Made by a program: the position numbers and the translations under genes. A DNA stretch of 64,000 bases from Candidatus Sulfotelmatobacter sp. (lineage in GTDB: Bacteria; Acidobacteriota; Terriglobia; Terriglobales; Acidobacteriaceae), in NCBI GenBank assembly GCA_036500765.1, contig DASYBM010000011.1, positions 1-64,000 on the forward strand, given 5' to 3'. Under the pieces are notes generated by a model. That model ran no database searches. It was not told the origin of the DNA and saw nothing but the letters and a program-made list of their open reading frames with translations. Of this stretch, positions 15,293 to 50,097 are shown piece after piece (the first letter of the stretch is position 1; each line of letters starts with the position of its first letter).

Positions 15293-15359
15293 GCTTGTTT
15301 CACGAATGTGTTGGACGACAAATGTTCGACAACAATGCGCGACTCAGCGCGGGTTGCTC

Positions 15360-16589
15360 TCAACCTTCACGGGCGAGAGTACCCGCGCAACATAATTTTC
15401 CTTCGAAGAATTCTTCGACGCGCGCCAGGATCTCGGGCGCATTCTTCGATTCATAAATAGCCTTGCGCAATCCCGCCCCGCCCGGCACCCCGTGCGTGAA
15501 CCACGACGCAAACTGCTTCATCTTCCCCACCGCGTCGGGCAACTCCTCTTCAATCAGCATCGAAAAATACGTACGGATCATCTGGTAACGATCGGCTTCG
15601 GAGGGCTGATCGTACATCTTCGTGCAGGCCGGCAAGTTCGTGGAGCCCCGGATGCCCCCATCCGGGGTGGCCGCACGCGATGCGTTCCCCGGCTCTTCGG
15701 AGCGGACGAGGGCGTCCGCCCTTCCATAAGTACTCCCTATCCCGGCACAGTACTGCTCGATCTGCCGAAAGATCCACGGATTCGACGGCGCACTTCGCCC
15801 AATCATCACCGCGTCACAGCCCGTCTGTGTCACCATCGCCCCGGCATCTTCGGGCGTTCGGATGTCGCCATTCCCGATCACGGGAATCTTCACCGCATCT
15901 TTGACGGCGGCAATCCACTCCCAGCGCGCGTTGCCGCTGTAGCCCATTTCGCGCGTGCGGGCATGTAGCGCCACCGCCGCCAGCCCGCAATCTTCCGCGA
16001 TCCGCGCCAGTTCGACGCAGACAATTTCCTCGTCATTCCATCCGGCGCGGAATTTCACGGTAAAGGGAATCTTCACCGCAGCCTGCACCGCTTCGAAGAT
16101 CCTGCCAATCGCCGGTAGGTCTCGAAGCAGCCCCGAGCCTCCGTTGCACTTCACAACTTTCTTCGCCGGACATCCCAGGTTCAAATCGACCAGATCGAAG
16201 CCCAGCCCCTCGACCATGCGCGCGGCTTCGGCCATCACATACGGATCGCTGCCAAAAAGCTGCGCCGAGATCGGATGCTCGTCTTCGTAAAAATGAAGAT
16301 AGCGCTTGGCCTTCTGGTCTTTCTTGCGCAGCACACCATCGGCCGAGGTGAACTCGGTCATAATCAGCCCGCATCCGCCCAGGTTGCGGATGAACCGGCG
16401 GAACACGGTGTCGGTAACGCCGGCCATCGGCGCGAGGACGGTAGCTGGCGCAATCGTGACACCCCCGATCGAAACCTCTGCGGGAACGAGCTTCTGTAGT
16501 GCGGTCTGGCGGACAAAAGTGTGCGCCTCACACGAACCCGAGTTGTCCCAAAACTTCTTCACGGATCTAATTCTAACCTGCCCATGCAA
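15360..16589 (-). CDS. dus: tRNA-dihydrouridine synthase (Dus family) with an internal repeat-derived insertion
   Basis: A flavin enzyme that reduces uridines to dihydrouridine in tRNA. The family signatures are visible: APMAGVTDTVFRR, ELFGSDP-like segment SAQLFGSDPY, the catalytic-Cys block DLNLGCPAKKV, VKFRAGWND, HARTREMGYSG, IGNGDI and GRSAPSNPWIF. At 409 residues it is about 60-80 longer than normal. Most of the excess is ~38 residues (about 15618-15732) read from palindromic repeat DNA. The 5' boundary is uncertain: the first ATG lies against the rpmE terminator and the first ~30 residues are unlike the family. Confidence 0.88.
   Translation of the reverse strand: MHGQVRIRSVKKFWDNSGSCEAHTFVRQTALQKLVPAEVSIGGVTIAPATVLAPMAGVTDTVFRRFIRNLGGCGLIMTEFTSADGVLRKKDQKAKRYLHFYEDEHPISAQLFGSDPYVMAEAARMVEGLGFDLVDLNLGCPAKKVVKCNGGSGLLRDLPAIGRIFEAVQAAVKIPFTVKFRAGWNDEEIVCVELARIAEDCGLAAVALHARTREMGYSGNARWEWIAAVKDAVKIPVIGNGDIRTPEDAGAMVTQTGCDAVMIGRSAPSNPWIFRQIEQYCAGIGSTYGRADALVRSEEPGNASRAATPDGGIRGSTNLPACTKMYDQPSEADRYQMIRTYFSMLIEEELPDAVGKMKQFASWFTHGVPGGAGLRKAIYESKNAPEILARVEEFFEGKLCCAGTLAREG
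15618..15732 (-). repeat. Palindromic repeat inserted in frame in dus
   Basis: Within dus, CCCCGGATGCCCCCATCCGGGG (about 15646-15667) forms a hairpin and GCGGACGAGGGCGTCCGC lies further along. These resemble the window's intergenic palindromes (gacggacgcattcgtccgtc at 27513-27532). Conserved Dus sequence resumes on both sides: the WIFRQIEQY segment before it and MYDQPSEADRY after it. It has no stop in the dus frame. Confidence 0.6.
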
Positions 16590-16616
16590 AACAAAGCCCC
16601 TGCCAAAGCAGGGGCT
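16589..16616 (-). terminator. Intrinsic terminator of rpmE
   Basis: On the minus strand a 9-bp stem AGCCCCTGC/GCAGGGGCT (16595-16616) with a 4-base loop is followed by TTTGTTTT, a classic rho-independent terminator about 50 bases after the rpmE stop. It separates rpmE from dus. Confidence 0.8.
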
Positions 16617-16664
16617 GAATTTCTTTGATCCGCAAGAATCCGTGCAAATCCGTGGCGAAGGGGT

Positions 16665-16883
16665 TTAGCTTTTCGCCGGAGTTGCCTTCGCGTACTTGCG
16701 GCGGAACCGCTCCACGCGTCCGGCCGTGTCCATCAGCTTCGACTTGCCCGTGAAGAAGGGATGGCAGTTCGAGCAGATTTCCACGCCGATATCGCCCTTA
16801 TGCGTCGACCGCGTCATAAATGTGTTGCCGCATGCGCAATGCACGCGCACTTCGTTGTAAGCGGGATGAATGGCTGCTTTCAT
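16665..16883 (-). CDS. rpmE: 50S ribosomal protein L31 (zinc-binding form)
   Basis: 72 residues, normal length. It begins [22 protein letters not shown] and contains [30 protein letters not shown]. The CxC and CxxC pairs are the zinc-binding form of L31, so this is not the zinc-independent YkgM-type paralogue. L31 sits at the central protuberance of the large ribosomal subunit. Confidence 0.97.
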
Positions 16884-27506: not shown

Positions 27507-27532
27507 CGTAGCGACGGACGCATTCGTCCGTC
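27507..27532. repeat. 26-base palindromic repeat, copy 1
   Basis: CGTAGCGACGGACGCATTCGTCCGTC contains the hairpin GACGGACG/CGTCCGTC. The same 26 bases occur exactly at 34185-34210. Confidence 0.8.
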
Positions 27533-34184: not shown

Positions 34185-34210
34185 CGTAGCGACGGACGCA
34201 TTCGTCCGTC
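34185..34210. repeat. 26-base palindromic repeat, copy 2
   Basis: Identical to 27507-27532. Confidence 0.8.
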
Positions 34211-44001: not shown

Positions 44002-44505
44002 CTATTTCACTGCCACATCCGTAACCCGAATCTCCGGATACTCGTGGTTCCACTGCGCGGAAATGCTGTCGAACGTTAGCCGAAACGGAAGCGCCTGCCC
44101 CGGCCCCAGCGGCAAGACATTCAGATCCACCGGCTCAAGATAAGCGCCATTGGTCCGAACCACCCTCAGCGGCACCTCTTCGCGCTGGGCCAACTGTCCC
44201 AGCGAATCTTTGAATGTCACTTCCACCACGACATGCGTCACCGTCTTGTCGCCGGCGTTAGTAATGGTGCCGTCGATGTAGCTGACCGTCGCGCCAATGA
44301 AATTCTCCGCCGCGCTCATCTTGAAATCGGAAAGCTTCAGGTTCGCGATATAAGGCGAGGCCTGCTTCGCGGCCTTCGGCGGCTCGCGCAGCAGAAAGGC
44401 AACTGTCAGCGCGCCCCCAATCACCGCGACCATCGCTATCGCAATAATCAAACGGCTGGAGTCGCGTTCCTCAGCGACCGGAGTTGGCTGTCCCAAGCTG
44501 CCCAT
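44002..44505 (-). CDS. DUF2393-type membrane-anchored protein
   Basis: About 167 residues. One transmembrane helix (LIIAIAMVAVIGGALTVAFLL) follows a short cytoplasmic part; the C-terminal domain is periplasmic and beta-rich (YIDGTITNAGDKTVTHVVVEVTFKDSLGQLAQREEVPL). The pattern matches DUF2393 proteins found in Acidobacteriota, with no known function. Met 44505 is preferred; a longer frame to 44631 runs into a palindromic repeat. Confidence 0.7.
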   Translation of the reverse strand: MGSLGQPTPVAEERDSSRLIIAIAMVAVIGGALTVAFLLREPPKAAKQASPYIANLKLSDFKMSAAENFIGATVSYIDGTITNAGDKTVTHVVVEVTFKDSLGQLAQREEVPLRVVRTNGAYLEPVDLNVLPLGPGQALPFRLTFDSISAQWNHEYPEIRVTDVAVK

Positions 44506-44570
44506 GGCGGAAATTGTAGGCCGTTGCTTTTCGATTGTCGATTTATCCCTGGTTATGCAGGAGACGATGA

Positions 44571-44620
44571 TCGTGTGGGGACAGCCGCCCCCGGCTGTTT
44601 GGTCGAGCGTAGCTCGACTC
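44571..44620. repeat. Double-hairpin intergenic palindrome
   Basis: ACAGCCG...CGGCTGT (44581-44598) and GTCGAGC/GCTCGAC (44602-44618), preceded by GTGTGGGG. Same architecture as 12441-12489. Confidence 0.55.
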
Positions 44621-44649
44621 GCCCTGGCCACGACAGCGAGCCAAACCCT

Positions 44650-45801
44650 CTACCCTGGCGCCTTCCCAGCCAGCAACTTCGACGCATTCTCGTGATACAC
44701 ATTCTGAAGAACCGCCTCACTCAACCCAAACCCATTCAATGCCCAGTGATAAGAAAACTGATCGACCTCATAAAAATGCTCATCCGTCGACTCCAGAATT
44801 CGAAACGTAACCCGGTACATCGCCTTATCGAAGCCCATGTCGGTTCCGTACAAAAGCCGGTCGGAATACTTCATATAAAATTGCGCCGCAAAGCGCGGAA
44901 TAGGCCCAGTCTCTGCATACCGCGCAGAAATGTCAGCATACAGATTCGGGTTTCGTTCCAGCACCTGCCCCAGCCGCGCCAGATCATAGTCCAGATTCGC
45001 AAAGTGGCATGCGATAAAAGTTGTGTTGCGATGCCGCGCCGCCGTTCGCTCAAGGATGTCGACCATCCCAGACAGCCCGACAATCCCCGGTTGATTGTCC
45101 AATCGCCATTCGTAAGCGTTCATCAGGCCGTCGTTATGCCGATCCATTTTCTGGTACATCCAGATCGGATCGGCCACATGCAAACTGACCGGCATGCCCA
45201 ACTCGCCGCACTTGTCCCACAACAAATCCATGCGTGCGTCATCGGGATGCATCCGCGGAGCGTTCGACTTTCCTGAGCGCAGCCCCTTCCCCTTGTCGTG
45301 GATTTCCCCCACGCCGCGCGCTCCGGCCCGCCGGCAGCGCTCTAACTCTTTAATAGCCGTAGGCCCGAAACCCGCCTTGTCATATCCGCTGAAATCCAAC
45401 CCGCACCACATTTCAAACCGCTCCGGATGCTTCGCATACTGCCGGTAAATCTCGTCAAACGCCGCGCCCGTCGCCATGGTGAGGATGATCGTCTTCTCGA
45501 CTCCAACTTCGTCCATGTTCCGCACCCAGTCATCGATCTCCCGCGCAGTCTTCGCGTACGGATGCGAGTGCATATCGATGATCGGGAATTTCGCCTTGGC
45601 GATCTCGGTAACCGGAATCTTGTAGATCGACTGCGGCCGGTAGTCCTTCAGCAAAATGTGCTCGGGCGAATCGGCGTGCGTTGCTGAAGGAGCTTTTTTC
45701 TCGGCCTTCTCGGCACCAGAAACGACCGCCAGCGCAGACGCAGGTATTCCCGCCGCCAGCCCCGCCAGATTGGCCCACCTCAAAAACGATCTTCGATTCA
45801 C
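44650..45801 (-). CDS. Exported amidohydrolase-family protein
   Basis: About 383 residues. The N-terminus MNRRSFLRWANLAGLAAG has a twin-arginine motif (RRSFLR), so it should be exported folded. The body is an amidohydrolase TIM barrel (FPIIDMHSHPYAKT with the first metal His pair, GLDFSGYDKAG, VSLHVADP, ACHFANLDYDLARLG, LYGTDMGFDKAMY with the late Asp). Relatives act on aromatic carboxylates or lactones; the substrate is not evident. GTG 45801 follows GGGAGA; earlier frames to 46047 are not supported. Confidence 0.85.
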   Translation of the reverse strand: MNRRSFLRWANLAGLAAGIPASALAVVSGAEKAEKKAPSATHADSPEHILLKDYRPQSIYKIPVTEIAKAKFPIIDMHSHPYAKTAREIDDWVRNMDEVGVEKTIILTMATGAAFDEIYRQYAKHPERFEMWCGLDFSGYDKAGFGPTAIKELERCRRAGARGVGEIHDKGKGLRSGKSNAPRMHPDDARMDLLWDKCGELGMPVSLHVADPIWMYQKMDRHNDGLMNAYEWRLDNQPGIVGLSGMVDILERTAARHRNTTFIACHFANLDYDLARLGQVLERNPNLYADISARYAETGPIPRFAAQFYMKYSDRLLYGTDMGFDKAMYRVTFRILESTDEHFYEVDQFSYHWALNGFGLSEAVLQNVYHENASKLLAGKAPG

Positions 45802-47122: not shown

Positions 47123-48511
47123 CTACTCCCCGCCCACCGTCAATCCGTCCACGCGAATCGTCGGCGCGGCCACTGACCCGCGAAACTCCAGATCATTCGC
47201 GATCTCTGAAATATTGAAAAACAACTCTTTCAAATTCCCCGCCACCGTGATCTCTTCCACCGGATACGCGAACTCTCCGCCAGAAATCCACATGCCCGAA
47301 GCGCCTCGCGAATAGTCGCCAGTCACCAGGTTCACGCCCTGGCCGAGAAATTCCGTGACGTAGAGGCCTTCCTTCACGTCCGCGATCAATTCCTTCGCCG
47401 ACCGCGCACCCGCCTGCAGAAAATAATTCCCCGGCCCAATCCCCGGAGTCCCCGCCAGCCCACGGGCCGCGTTCCCCGTAGTCTGCAAGCCCAGCTTCTT
47501 GGCGGTGTAGGTATTGAGTAAGTAAGACTTGAGCACGCCGTTCTCGATCACGACCGTGCGCCGCGTGGGCACGCCCTCGCCATCGAACGGGCTCGTGCCA
47601 AAACCGCCGCGGATCGTGCCATCGTCGATGATGTTGACGTTGTCCCCCGCAATTTTCTGTCCCAGCTTGCCTGCCAGAAAAGACGCGCCGCGATAGACCG
47701 AATCCCCATTCACCCCTTCGAAAATATGTTCGAGGATCGAGGTCGAAACCATGGGATCGAAAATAATCGGCACCTGCGCCGTCTTGGCCTTGCGCGCGCC
47801 CAACCGCCGCAGGGTGCGCTCGGCGGCGATCTTGCCGACTTTTTCGGGCGCGTCGAGTTTCGACAAAGTCCGAGCCACCGAGTACCAGTAATCGCGCTGC
47901 ATGGCGCCGTCGTCGCTCTGCGCAATCGGAATCGCCGCCACCGAACAATACGACCGCCGATACTCGCCCACAAACCCATGCGAGTTCGCCAGAACTTTGT
48001 GGCCCGTGGCCGCGTCGAACGATCCGCCTTCAGAATTCTTGATTCGCGAATCCAAATCGAGCGCCGCTTTTTCCGCACGCCGCGCGTAGTCGATGCGATC
48101 CGCACCGGGCAGGGAATAAACGTCTTCATGATAAAGATCGAGATCGCCGGTGATCGAACCGAGTTGCGAGGCATCCGGAATTCCGCCGAATGGATCTTCC
48201 GAGGTGATCTTCGCCAGGGCCAAAGCCGACGCGACCATGCGGTCAAGCCCGGCGCTAGAAAAATCGCTTGAATAAGTGCTGGCCGCGCGCTGCCCAAAAA
48301 ACACACGCACGCCGATCGACTTCGAGCCCGACTCCTTCAGAGTCTCGACTTGACCAAGGCGCACAAGCGTGGAAAATTCATCGCCCTCGCGGACGACGCA
48401 TTCAGCGGCGCTGGCGCCGCCTGCCATAGCGCGCGCCACAATATCCTGCGCGATGTTGCGCAAGTCGGTTTCGATTTTCGGATTTCGCGTTTGGACTTCA
48501 GTTGACGGCAT
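47123..48511 (-). CDS. pmbA: Metalloprotease-like protein PmbA/TldE
   Basis: About 462 residues of the TldD/PmbA family. It has the conserved blocks GVRVFFGQRAASTYSSD, PIIFDPMVSTSILEHIFEG, FLAGKLGQKIAGDNVNIIDDGT, GFGTSPFDGEGVPTRRTVVIENGVLKSYLLN and the C-terminal FRGSVAAPTIRVDGLTVGG. PmbA (TldE) lacks the HExxH of TldD and forms a heteromer with it that trims small peptides and natural-product precursors. tldD lies directly upstream on the same strand, with a gap of about 100 bases. Confidence 0.92.
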   Translation of the reverse strand: MPSTEVQTRNPKIETDLRNIAQDIVARAMAGGASAAECVVREGDEFSTLVRLGQVETLKESGSKSIGVRVFFGQRAASTYSSDFSSAGLDRMVASALALAKITSEDPFGGIPDASQLGSITGDLDLYHEDVYSLPGADRIDYARRAEKAALDLDSRIKNSEGGSFDAATGHKVLANSHGFVGEYRRSYCSVAAIPIAQSDDGAMQRDYWYSVARTLSKLDAPEKVGKIAAERTLRRLGARKAKTAQVPIIFDPMVSTSILEHIFEGVNGDSVYRGASFLAGKLGQKIAGDNVNIIDDGTIRGGFGTSPFDGEGVPTRRTVVIENGVLKSYLLNTYTAKKLGLQTTGNAARGLAGTPGIGPGNYFLQAGARSAKELIADVKEGLYVTEFLGQGVNLVTGDYSRGASGMWISGGEFAYPVEEITVAGNLKELFFNISEIANDLEFRGSVAAPTIRVDGLTVGGE

Positions 48512-48577
48512 GGCTCCTATTTCTCGCAAGCGCAAAAGCAGATTCCTCGCTCCGCTCGGAATGACAAAATGTCTGTG

Positions 48578-48612
48578 GTATCCGTGAAAATCCGTGCAGA
48601 TCCGTGGCCAAG
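48578..48612. repeat. ATCCGTG dispersed repeat
   Basis: GTATCCGTGAAAATCCGTGC then AGATCCGTGGCCAAG. A similar run lies at 16627-16661 (GATCCGCAAGAATCCGTGCA then AATCCGTGGCG). It overlaps the start of the tldD-pmbA gap. Confidence 0.45.
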
Positions 48613-48615
48613 ATT

Positions 48616-50097
48616 CTACTGCATGAAGCCACCGGGGTCTTTCCGCGCGGTCCCGCCGACGGTCATGCGGTCAATCTTCAGTGTAGGAATGCCCACGCCC
48701 ACGGGCACGGCCTGCCCATCCTTGCCGCAGGTGCCCACGCCCTCGTCAAGTTTCAAATCGTTTCCGACCATTGAAACGCGCGTCAGCACATCGGGACCAT
48801 TGCCGATCAGCGTCGCACCCTTGATCGGCGCGGTGACTTGGCCATCCTCGATCATGTACGCTTCCGACGCCGAGAAGACAAATTTTCCGTTGGTGATGTC
48901 CACCTGCCCGCCGCCAAAGTTCACCGCATAAATTCCGCGCTTCACCGAGCGAATAATGTCTCCCGGATCGTCCTGGCCAGCCAGCATGTAAGTGTTGGTC
49001 ATGCGCGGCATGGGAATGTGCTCATAGCTCTCGCGCCGTCCGTTTCCCGTGTCGGAGATGCCCATCAGTCGCGACGAAAGTTTGTCGCTCAAATATCCTT
49101 TGAGAATTCCGTTCTCGATGAGCACGGTCTCCTGCGTAGGTTCGCCTTCGTCATCGACGTTCAAAGACCCGCGCCGCCATGGCATAGTGCCGTTATCGAC
49201 CACAGTGCACTTTTCGCTGGCCACGCGCTTGCCCACTAGACCGGCGAAGGCCGAAGTTTTCTTGCGGTTGAAATCCGCTTCCAGCCCGTGCCCTACAGCT
49301 TCGTGCAGCAAAACTCCCGGCCATCCCGGACCGAGCACAACTTCCATCTCGCCCGCCGGAGCTTCGCGCGCGTCGAGTTGCAGAATTGCCTGCCGCGCCG
49401 ATTCCCTCGCGAAAAATTCCGGCGTCTTCTCGCCGAAGAAAAAGTCAAGCGCGACGCGCCCGCCGCCGCCCGAACTACCGCGCGCAGAGTTGCCTTCCGT
49501 TTTCGCGATGCACGATACGTTCATGCGCGCCAGCGGCTGCGAATCTTCGGCAAACGTTCCGTCGGAACCGACCACCAGAATGTTGCGCAACTCATCCGCA
49601 TAGCTCGCCCGCACTTCCTGAATGCGTGGATCATACGCACGTGCGGCCTTATCGGCGCGCATCGCCAATTCAACCTTCGCGCTGATGTCCGCATCCACCG
49701 ACGGCAACGTCACCGGATACAGGCTGCGCGCCGCCGCCTTCTGAAAACCCGCGACCGTGGCCTTCGCCGGAGCGCTGGCAATCAGTGCCGCCGTGCGCGC
49801 CGCGTGCAGAATGCGCTCGGAAGAAAGATCGTCGGTATAGGCATACCCCGTCCGTTCGCCGGAGACGACCCGCACTCCGCATCCCGCCGATATCCCCTGC
49901 GACGCCGACTTCACCATCGACTCATCCACCATCAGTGAAGTCGACGAAAGATACTCGAAGTACAGGTCGGCATAATCGCCTCCCGCCGACAGCGCGGCGG
50001 CAAGATAGCGCTCCAGATCATGCTCGGTCAATCCGTAATGTTCGAAGAAAAACCGCTGTCGGTTAAGAACCTGCTTATCGGAAATTTGTTGGTCCAC
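48616..50097 (-). CDS. tldD: Metalloprotease TldD
   Basis: 493 residues with the metal motif HEAVGH within GPGWPGVLLHEAVGHGLEAD, and the family blocks GEPTQETVLIENGILKGYLSDKLSSRLMG, YEHIPMPRMTNTYM and VKRGIYAVNFGGGQVDITNGKFVFSASEAYMIEDGQVTAPIKGATLIGNGPD. TldD is the catalytic partner of PmbA. It is the first gene of the two-gene run. Confidence 0.94.
   Translation of the reverse strand: MDQQISDKQVLNRQRFFFEHYGLTEHDLERYLAAALSAGGDYADLYFEYLSSTSLMVDESMVKSASQGISAGCGVRVVSGERTGYAYTDDLSSERILHAARTAALIASAPAKATVAGFQKAAARSLYPVTLPSVDADISAKVELAMRADKAARAYDPRIQEVRASYADELRNILVVGSDGTFAEDSQPLARMNVSCIAKTEGNSARGSSGGGGRVALDFFFGEKTPEFFARESARQAILQLDAREAPAGEMEVVLGPGWPGVLLHEAVGHGLEADFNRKKTSAFAGLVGKRVASEKCTVVDNGTMPWRRGSLNVDDEGEPTQETVLIENGILKGYLSDKLSSRLMGISDTGNGRRESYEHIPMPRMTNTYMLAGQDDPGDIIRSVKRGIYAVNFGGGQVDITNGKFVFSASEAYMIEDGQVTAPIKGATLIGNGPDVLTRVSMVGNDLKLDEGVGTCGKDGQAVPVGVGIPTLKIDRMTVGGTARKDPGGFMQ

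Follow-up and report, generated by a model that had tools for sequence, protein, structure and literature searches.

What is the extra segment in the middle of the tRNA-dihydrouridine synthase (Dus) encoded in the window, and how did it come to be there? The window is the whole stretch of 64,000 nucleotides analysed, taken from contig C11 of a 5.04 Mb Candidatus Sulfotelmatobacter genome (G000). A first, sequence-only reading of this DNA had noted about 38 extra residues between the motifs WIFRQIEQY and MYDQPSEADRY and attributed them to a palindromic repeat inserted in frame. The gene and its linker, the genomic copies of the repeat and the corresponding site in related genomes were analysed.

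The dus gene and the palindromic element in its linker

The gene has the Dus fold and a conserved core. The product matches PF01207 at residues 52-281 (Pfam, E 3.6e-78). E. coli DusB (6ei9_A) is both the best PDB sequence match (E 1.1e-55) and the top Foldseek match of the model (TM 0.89 by target length), and many columns are invariant across 69 aligned Dus sequences. The extra residues are present where they had been placed, and comparison with relatives sets their number at about 40: 44 residues lie between WIFRQIEQYC and YDQPSEADRY, as against approximately 4-5 in insert-free relatives, and the linker up to DRY has 52 aa, as against 12 aa in most insert-free Dus. The linker is open in the dus frame and contains no stop codon, as had been claimed.

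The mean pLDDT of the AlphaFold model is 82.3. In three blocks covering most of the insert it falls to 42-53, whereas the neighbouring blocks have 84-95. In the model, helix 273-294 continues into the beginning of the insert, and residue 331 is the start of the following helix. Most of the insert is thus predicted as a low-confidence stretch joining two domains, the barrel and the C-terminal helices. The latter touch tRNA in known Dus structures.

Table 1. Features of the window, and genes carrying repeats among the fetched F2 and F4 loci
Feature	Position or locus	Strand	Remarks
dus, tRNA-dihydrouridine synthase	15363..16589	-	ORF listed as 409 aa, TTG start; stop codon 15360-15362
Enlarged linker of dus	15615..15746	-	Residues 282-325, ~40 more than insert-free Dus; pLDDT <50 at residues 296-318
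Extra codons, Dus core to element	15728..15746	-	AGIGST and one base; absent from insert-free Dus; species-variable
Palindromic repeat element, 88 bp	15640..15727		GTGG tag, hairpin B, spacer, hairpin A, inverted ATGG-type end
Hairpin A	15701..15720		GCGGACG-AGGG-CGTCCGC; 1 mismatch to typed F1c consensus
Hairpin B	15646..15667		CCCCGGATG-CCCC-CATCCGGGG; 3 mismatches to typed F1d consensus
Extra codons, element to Dus C-terminal part	15615..15639	-	NLPACTKM and last base of preceding codon; from linker comparison
Related F1-type hairpin	27513..27532		Outside ORFs >=120 aa; 2 mismatches
Related F1-type hairpin	34191..34210		Outside ORFs >=120 aa; 2 mismatches
PF04371 gene with repeat	L190, L214, L239		Pfam; L214 and L239 named by eye
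MetH gene with in-frame repeat	L211		Pfam
PheT gene with in-frame repeat	L216		Pfam
dus with repeat	L217		dus of G041
MBL-fold gene with in-frame repeat	L218		Pfam
Amine-oxidase-family genes with in-frame repeat	L224, L227		Pfam; F4 at the same place in both, by eye
LipB gene with in-frame repeat	L235		Pfam
MoaA gene with in-frame repeat	L241		Pfam

The window insert is a dispersed repeat of its own genome inserted in frame. The ends of the element were placed by eye from genomic copies, namely G000:C17:40943-41036 (which matches window positions 15634-15730), L002 and L047. Both hairpins have short perfect stems, of 7 and 9 bp; an inverted repeat search over the stretch with a minimum of 12 nt reported none. 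The genome search proposed with the original claim found dispersed copies. The 18-mer of hairpin A has 108 matches with at most three mismatches in its own genome, as against 19 for the reversed control, a few sites being counted on both strands because the pattern is palindromic; many among the matches listed are GGCGGACGCATTCGTCCG. Three other places in this genome match the dus stretch with E from 4e-13 to 1.3e-9, the best of them, at C17:40943, being 78% identical over approximately 95 bp. Judged by eye, many but not all copies of this family (F1) have the structure CACGTRG-palindrome-spacer-palindrome-CYACGTG, with the tagged palindromes in inverted order. Of the 20 F1 copies with the exact 18-mer in this genome, 17 show the GTRG tag at the palindrome foot. 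The hairpins had also been likened to palindromes between genes of the window, and at 27513 and 34191 related ones indeed lie outside ORFs of 120 aa or more. Taken together, the hairpin patterns give 10 listings at 7 places of the window, as against none in one mononucleotide-shuffled window.

Two further matches in the window concern repeats of other families described below. An F2-like hairpin with 3 mismatches (44579-44600) lies inside a 398-aa plus-strand frame (44080-45273) without a Pfam match. An F3-like motif with 3 mismatches (48548-48565) lies near the 5' end of a stop-to-stop frame of the TldD/PmbA family (47126-48670, minus strand), perhaps upstream of the true start of the gene.

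Dus linkers and genomic repeats in related species

A Dus match was observed in 41 of the 45 genomes of the genus, some of the matches being fragments; in G046 the gene (L266) runs off the end of contig C66. Eighty named Dus loci were fetched, and of 135 loci in all the junction was read in 131, leaving out L083, L084 and L085 at contig ends and the diverged outgroup locus L089. These yielded 101 distinct rows: 87 from the ingroup, which includes genera beyond that of the window, and 14 from outgroups in other families. Linker length ranges from 10 to 128 aa. All 14 outgroup linkers have 10-12 residues and no insert. In the ingroup, 69 rows have an enlarged linker, of up to 128 residues, and 18 are empty (at most 14 residues). 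The alignment with related dus genes, proposed earlier as a check, thus finds the segment missing from every outgroup row and from 18 of the 87 ingroup rows.

Genomic repeat copies are matched by 47 of the 69 enlarged linkers above the 99% shuffle cut, that is, the score reached by 1% of 1,380 dinucleotide shuffles, where about 0.7 would be expected from shuffles; the other 22 have no match above this cut to the repeat families tested. The ingroup consists of 34 F1/F2 rows, 10 F4 rows (two with F2 as well; some of the F4 references also carry F2-like DNA), 2 F3 rows, 23 others (among them L154, with an F4 match of 36.5 bits) and the 18 empty rows. The kinds were assigned by DNA, and an earlier classification by protein motifs was set aside. 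All-against-all clustering of the inserts was uninformative because nearly all of them were linked through their common flanks. The insert of the window supplied the F1 pattern, and a single genome supplied the F1 references; for F3, the query used to collect the references was the dus insert of L016, which is one record with L127, and dus loci were then removed. The encoded peptides differ by kind: GADALVRP...PDEGVRG or VGTAALGCPVERSST... in F1/F2 inserts, GHDFSRA...GAKA...GTAEAVPFP in F4 inserts and CHPEE... in F3 inserts. In L076 and L148, F2 and F4 stand in series in one linker. L130, L124 and L133 look by eye like remnants, with short F2-like ends below the repeat-match cut. Several repeat kinds thus occupy one Dus site and are absent from it in the outgroups. 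Approximately half of the species examined in this group of Acidobacteria have palindromic repeat DNA in frame at this one loop.

The other families are likewise dispersed. The F2 hairpin was found in all 45 genomes of the genus, with up to 176 matches (G054), and the F4 hairpin also in all 45, with up to 80 (G019), the F4 sites being partly counted on both strands; reversed controls gave 0-1 matches per strand. For F3, at least 39 matches were found in G016, dus included, when 40 of 101 candidates were scored. G019, whose dus carries F2, has eight near-full-length F2 copies, spanning query positions 20-25 to 148-156, near the ends of the dus element; the best is 88% identical to that element over about 130 bp. 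Many F2 copies are single halves. The F4 insert of G044 matches 42 places including itself, the others partially. In 25 of 30 F2 copies GTRG directly adjoins the palindrome foot (22 GTGG, 3 GTAG); F4, by eye, has no such tag. Two palindromes in inverted orientation form one unit in many F1 copies of G000 (by eye) and in the eight F2 copies of G019.

The reading frame is preserved and the Dus core is under selection. No stop codons were found in the 131 junctions. The dus frame is open in each of the 69 enlarged linkers, as against 47 of 138 shifted frames, and all 69 inserts have a length that is a multiple of three. In the core before the insert, the window gene and seven relatives differ by dN 0.035-0.066 and dS 1.04-1.48, the latter near saturation, so that dN/dS is about 0.03-0.05. 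With in-frame repeats at this loop, the segment would be translated, and therefore the enzyme is probably made with a repeat-derived piece that varies between species.

Origin of the inserts

It is probable, in our judgement, that a REPIN-like element inserted in frame into a flexible loop of Dus that tolerated it, and that it was later rewritten by repeats of other kinds. A dispersed element with a GTRG tag and a palindrome at each end, in inverted orientation, would have inserted between the TIM barrel and the C-terminal helices; it would be read as part of dus and tolerated as a flexible loop. In the lineage of the window there would have been one old F1/F2 insertion, whose hairpins shifted between the F1 and F2 types while frame and position were kept. 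F4 and F3 would later have entered or rewritten the same loop in other species, alone or in series, and in some species inserts would have been trimmed. As several repeat families spread, most copies landing in genes would be lost, and the few stop-free, in-frame copies in loops would be harmless and persist. Selection would retain only open, in-frame outcomes in a permissive loop, and the hot spot would be a product of this selection rather than of target preference.

One possibility is that the elements were moved by RAYT-type transposition, which is suggested by the GTRG tag and the inverted palindromes. Y1-type transposase genes are present in 43 of the 45 genomes of the genus. No F1, F2 or F4 hairpins convincingly flank RAYT-type genes at 15 distinct loci (six of seven in G000, where L098 and L100 are one gene counted once, and nine elsewhere). 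The six loci of G000 yielded one doubtful match with 4 mismatches, and the nine others one match with 3 mismatches more than 1 kb away. By eye, no F2 place was seen within 2 kb of 5 of the 11 RAYT-type places in G001, among the F2 matches listed, or of 7 of the 14 in G041. At the 15 loci, RAYT genes as the movers of F1, F2 or F4 thus find no support from neighbouring hairpins. Five of the six RAYT-type genes examined in G000 (L100, L101, L102, L103, L105) are surrounded by inverted repeats of other families, for example GGATGCCCCACCCGTC in L105. These recall the TIRYT class reported for Acidobacteria in the available part of PMC3733652.

The F1/F2 inserts, that of the window included, probably descend from one old insertion whose hairpins changed later, because most of them have their reading frame and position in common. 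Of the 34 F1/F2 rows, 27 were found to have the middle motif GTCGAGCGAAGCTCGAC, in one phase in all 27 and at the same base in 11, and this common phase makes many independent F1/F2 arrivals less likely. Among F1 rows the left hairpin has a single phase in 14 of 14; in F2 it is in one phase in 15 rows and in another in L165, and three more rows were found with the right hairpin alone. In the linkers L113 and L112 (F1) and L110, L107 and L119 (F2) the hairpins lie at the same bases and both arms have changed together, so that one hairpin type appears to have been exchanged for the other inside a coding gene. L111 resembles a chimera of F2 and F1. Perhaps such rewriting proceeded by conversion from genomic copies. 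The sequence-only reading had named as its contrary case an insert conserved at the protein level in closely related species without genomic copies of the repeat. This was not seen: sequence and length vary between the inserts, many of which match genomic repeats. The part of that case which holds is that F1/F2 inserts share their frame and often their position between species and are probably inherited.

The uniform phases, the chimera-like L111 and the coincident hairpins of L113 and L110 would also fit one ancient insertion inherited vertically, in which decay and conversion or recombination with genomic copies produced the differences between all present inserts, F4 and F3 included, without further transposition into the loop. 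However, the hairpins of F4 and F3 are different ones, their rows are interspersed with F1/F2 and empty rows, and the linkers of L076 and L148 each contain both F2 and F4, in series. Conversion would need homology, and none is obvious between the F4 and F1/F2 copies. A single clade of F4 carriers is rejected: forcing the ten of them together costs 212 log-likelihood units (p-AU 2.5e-6), the group being defined by the inserts, though the tree had been seen beforehand. The Dus core tree requires at least 10 changes for the presence of F4, 12 for filled against empty and 37 for five states; it is a weak tree, in which 11 of 98 inner branches are starred, 50 are open and the outgroup branches are long, and therefore these counts are rough. 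We consider a single insertion for all kinds unlikely, and read F4 and F3 as having arrived separately from the old F1/F2 insertion.

The frame kept in all 69 enlarged rows, and the predicted position of the stretch between the catalytic barrel and the C-terminal, tRNA-contacting helices, could also point to a selected function of the insert, for example as a module of the protein, as an extension that binds tRNA or as a hairpin in the mRNA tuning translation. However, linkers from 10 to 128 aa, 18 empty ingroup rows out of 87 and unrelated repeats at the same site argue against this. The RNA fold of the 151-nt stretch is no more stable than that of dinucleotide shuffles (z -0.23), and a special RNA fold of the insert is thus rejected. 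A selected function is accordingly improbable.

Some hairpin-forming elements are absent from the finished product: the palindromic byp elements of yeast mitochondria are skipped by the ribosome. If the dus element were likewise skipped, or removed from the message as introns are, the protein would be made without the insert. This is very improbable, as all 69 inserts are stop-free and multiples of three while only 47 of 138 shifted frames are open, and no Rfam family reaches the gathering score at 15300-16700, so that no known RNA family is recognised there at that score. Least probable of all is ordinary variation of loop length that resembles repeats merely through G+C-rich DNA, which would suit the 22 unmatched linkers but not the 47 matched ones, the genomic copies of the dus elements or, for the window's insert, its matches in its own genome and the count of 108 against 19.

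Repeats in other genes and in other bacteria

In-frame repeats were also found in other genes. Sixty F2 and F4 loci were fetched, 30 of each, one per genome from 30 of the 45 genomes; in this non-random sample, 11 loci lie inside a conserved gene (Table 1). The window itself contains an ORF similar to the MBL-fold gene L218 (13893-14750) without the insert, an empty-site comparison made by eye. Besides dus, one of 29 F1 loci in the window's genome falls within a protein domain: L058 (C9:284850), in the GTPase domain of SelB. In the selB region of this genome (L267, G000:C9:283500-287500, at approximately 1290-1385), an F1-type repeat is accompanied by short GTGGAGCCC-like units.

In the PF04371 agmatine-deiminase-like enzyme, the loop that separates RDSGCIF from KFRFNAWAK matches genomic repeats in 26 of 36 cases; three of the loci were known beforehand to carry a repeat, because the gene had been picked for its insert. 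The loops come from 38 loci (L268-L305), L272 and L301 not being extracted, and that of the window's genome (L270, G000:C4:574447-575547) is among those with a match. The repeats are read in at least two frames, by eye. A reading in both orientations was dropped because the hairpins are palindromic. This loop, whose pattern is like that of dus, is a second hot spot of repeat insertion.

In-frame palindromic repeats are best known from Rickettsia, and the dus insert had been likened to them. The likeness holds for a dispersed palindrome read in frame within a gene, but not for the build, which is GTRG-tagged and REPIN-like. By analogy, then, the elements appear to work like Rickettsia palindromic elements (RPEs) and intragenic REPs and to be built like REPINs. 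In the available part of Di Nocera et al. 2013, RPE-1 is reported in the tRNA pseudouridine synthase B gene of R. conorii, and RPEs are described as ending in CGTC (PMC3733652). In both cases, as far as that text goes, short dispersed palindromes are read in frame in conserved proteins, tRNA-modifying enzymes included. However, that description sets RPEs apart by their CGTC tag, whereas the tag here is mostly GTRG (GTGG in the window). The present elements also belong to another phylum, with genus genomes of 3.5-8.2 Mb, and include several repeat kinds at one site over many species.

The same part of that paper reports ORFs in several species that contain GTAG/CGTC REPs as monomers or dimers; many of these ORFs encode enzymes related to DNA repair or RNA. 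It also reports that the recB genes of X. campestris and X. oryzae have different REPs at nearly the same site (PMC3733652). For Acidobacteria it mentions transposase genes with terminal repeats, and intragenic repeats are not mentioned there (PMC3733652). Thus the closest case in that text concerns one gene in two Xanthomonas species, whereas the present set has 69 enlarged sites out of 87, three kinds of element, two composites, probable remnants and a second gene that behaves alike. Like GTAG REPs and REPINs, the F1 and F2 elements have GTRG at the palindrome foot (25/30 in F2, 17/20 in F1), though GTAG itself stands in only 3 of the 30 F2 copies.

REPINs are described in the portion of Bertels and Rainey 2011 at hand as many-copy units of two palindromes in inverted order (PMC3116915), as observed here, where Y1-type genes also occur in 43/45 genomes of the genus; on the other hand, no RAYT lies beside the repeats at the 15 loci. 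In the same portion, 14 of 1,067 REP 16-mers of strain SBW25 overlap genes (PMC3116915), against 11 of 60 F2/F4 loci in conserved genes here, in the non-random sample of one locus per genome. According to the abstract of Delihas 2007, enterobacterial RU elements, which are small MITE-like repeats, are also read as part of annotated genes (PMC2759123). However, the description there sets them apart as another repeat set in other bacteria, and the abstract does not include the use of one site by several families. In PMC10888264, Dus is mentioned in a reference.

In-frame palindromic repeats in genes are therefore already known, but one loop with several kinds across a clade, with composites and a second gene behaving alike, was not found in the literature searched, from which most subscription journals are missing. 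Nor did that literature contain a report of palindromes in Sulfotelmatobacter, which does not show the finding to be unpublished.

That several repeat kinds occur in the same loop, over many species of an Acidobacteriota genus whose genomes are of normal size, sets the phenomenon apart from genome decay. For annotators it means that many of the segments that vary among the Dus and agmatine-deiminase-like proteins described here are probably translated repeats rather than conserved domains. The inserts form a large comparative series for asking how much foreign sequence is tolerated by a folded enzyme, whether such segments become functional, and by what means the repeats are moved or converted. 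More generally, and here we would give slightly less than even chances, flexible enzyme loops may serve as standing landing pads, where repeat families arrive, swap hairpins, replace or join one another and are pared down with the frame unbroken. If this is true, repeat DNA rewrites a piece of protein from one species to the next, which amounts to a natural experiment, still under way, in making new protein segments.
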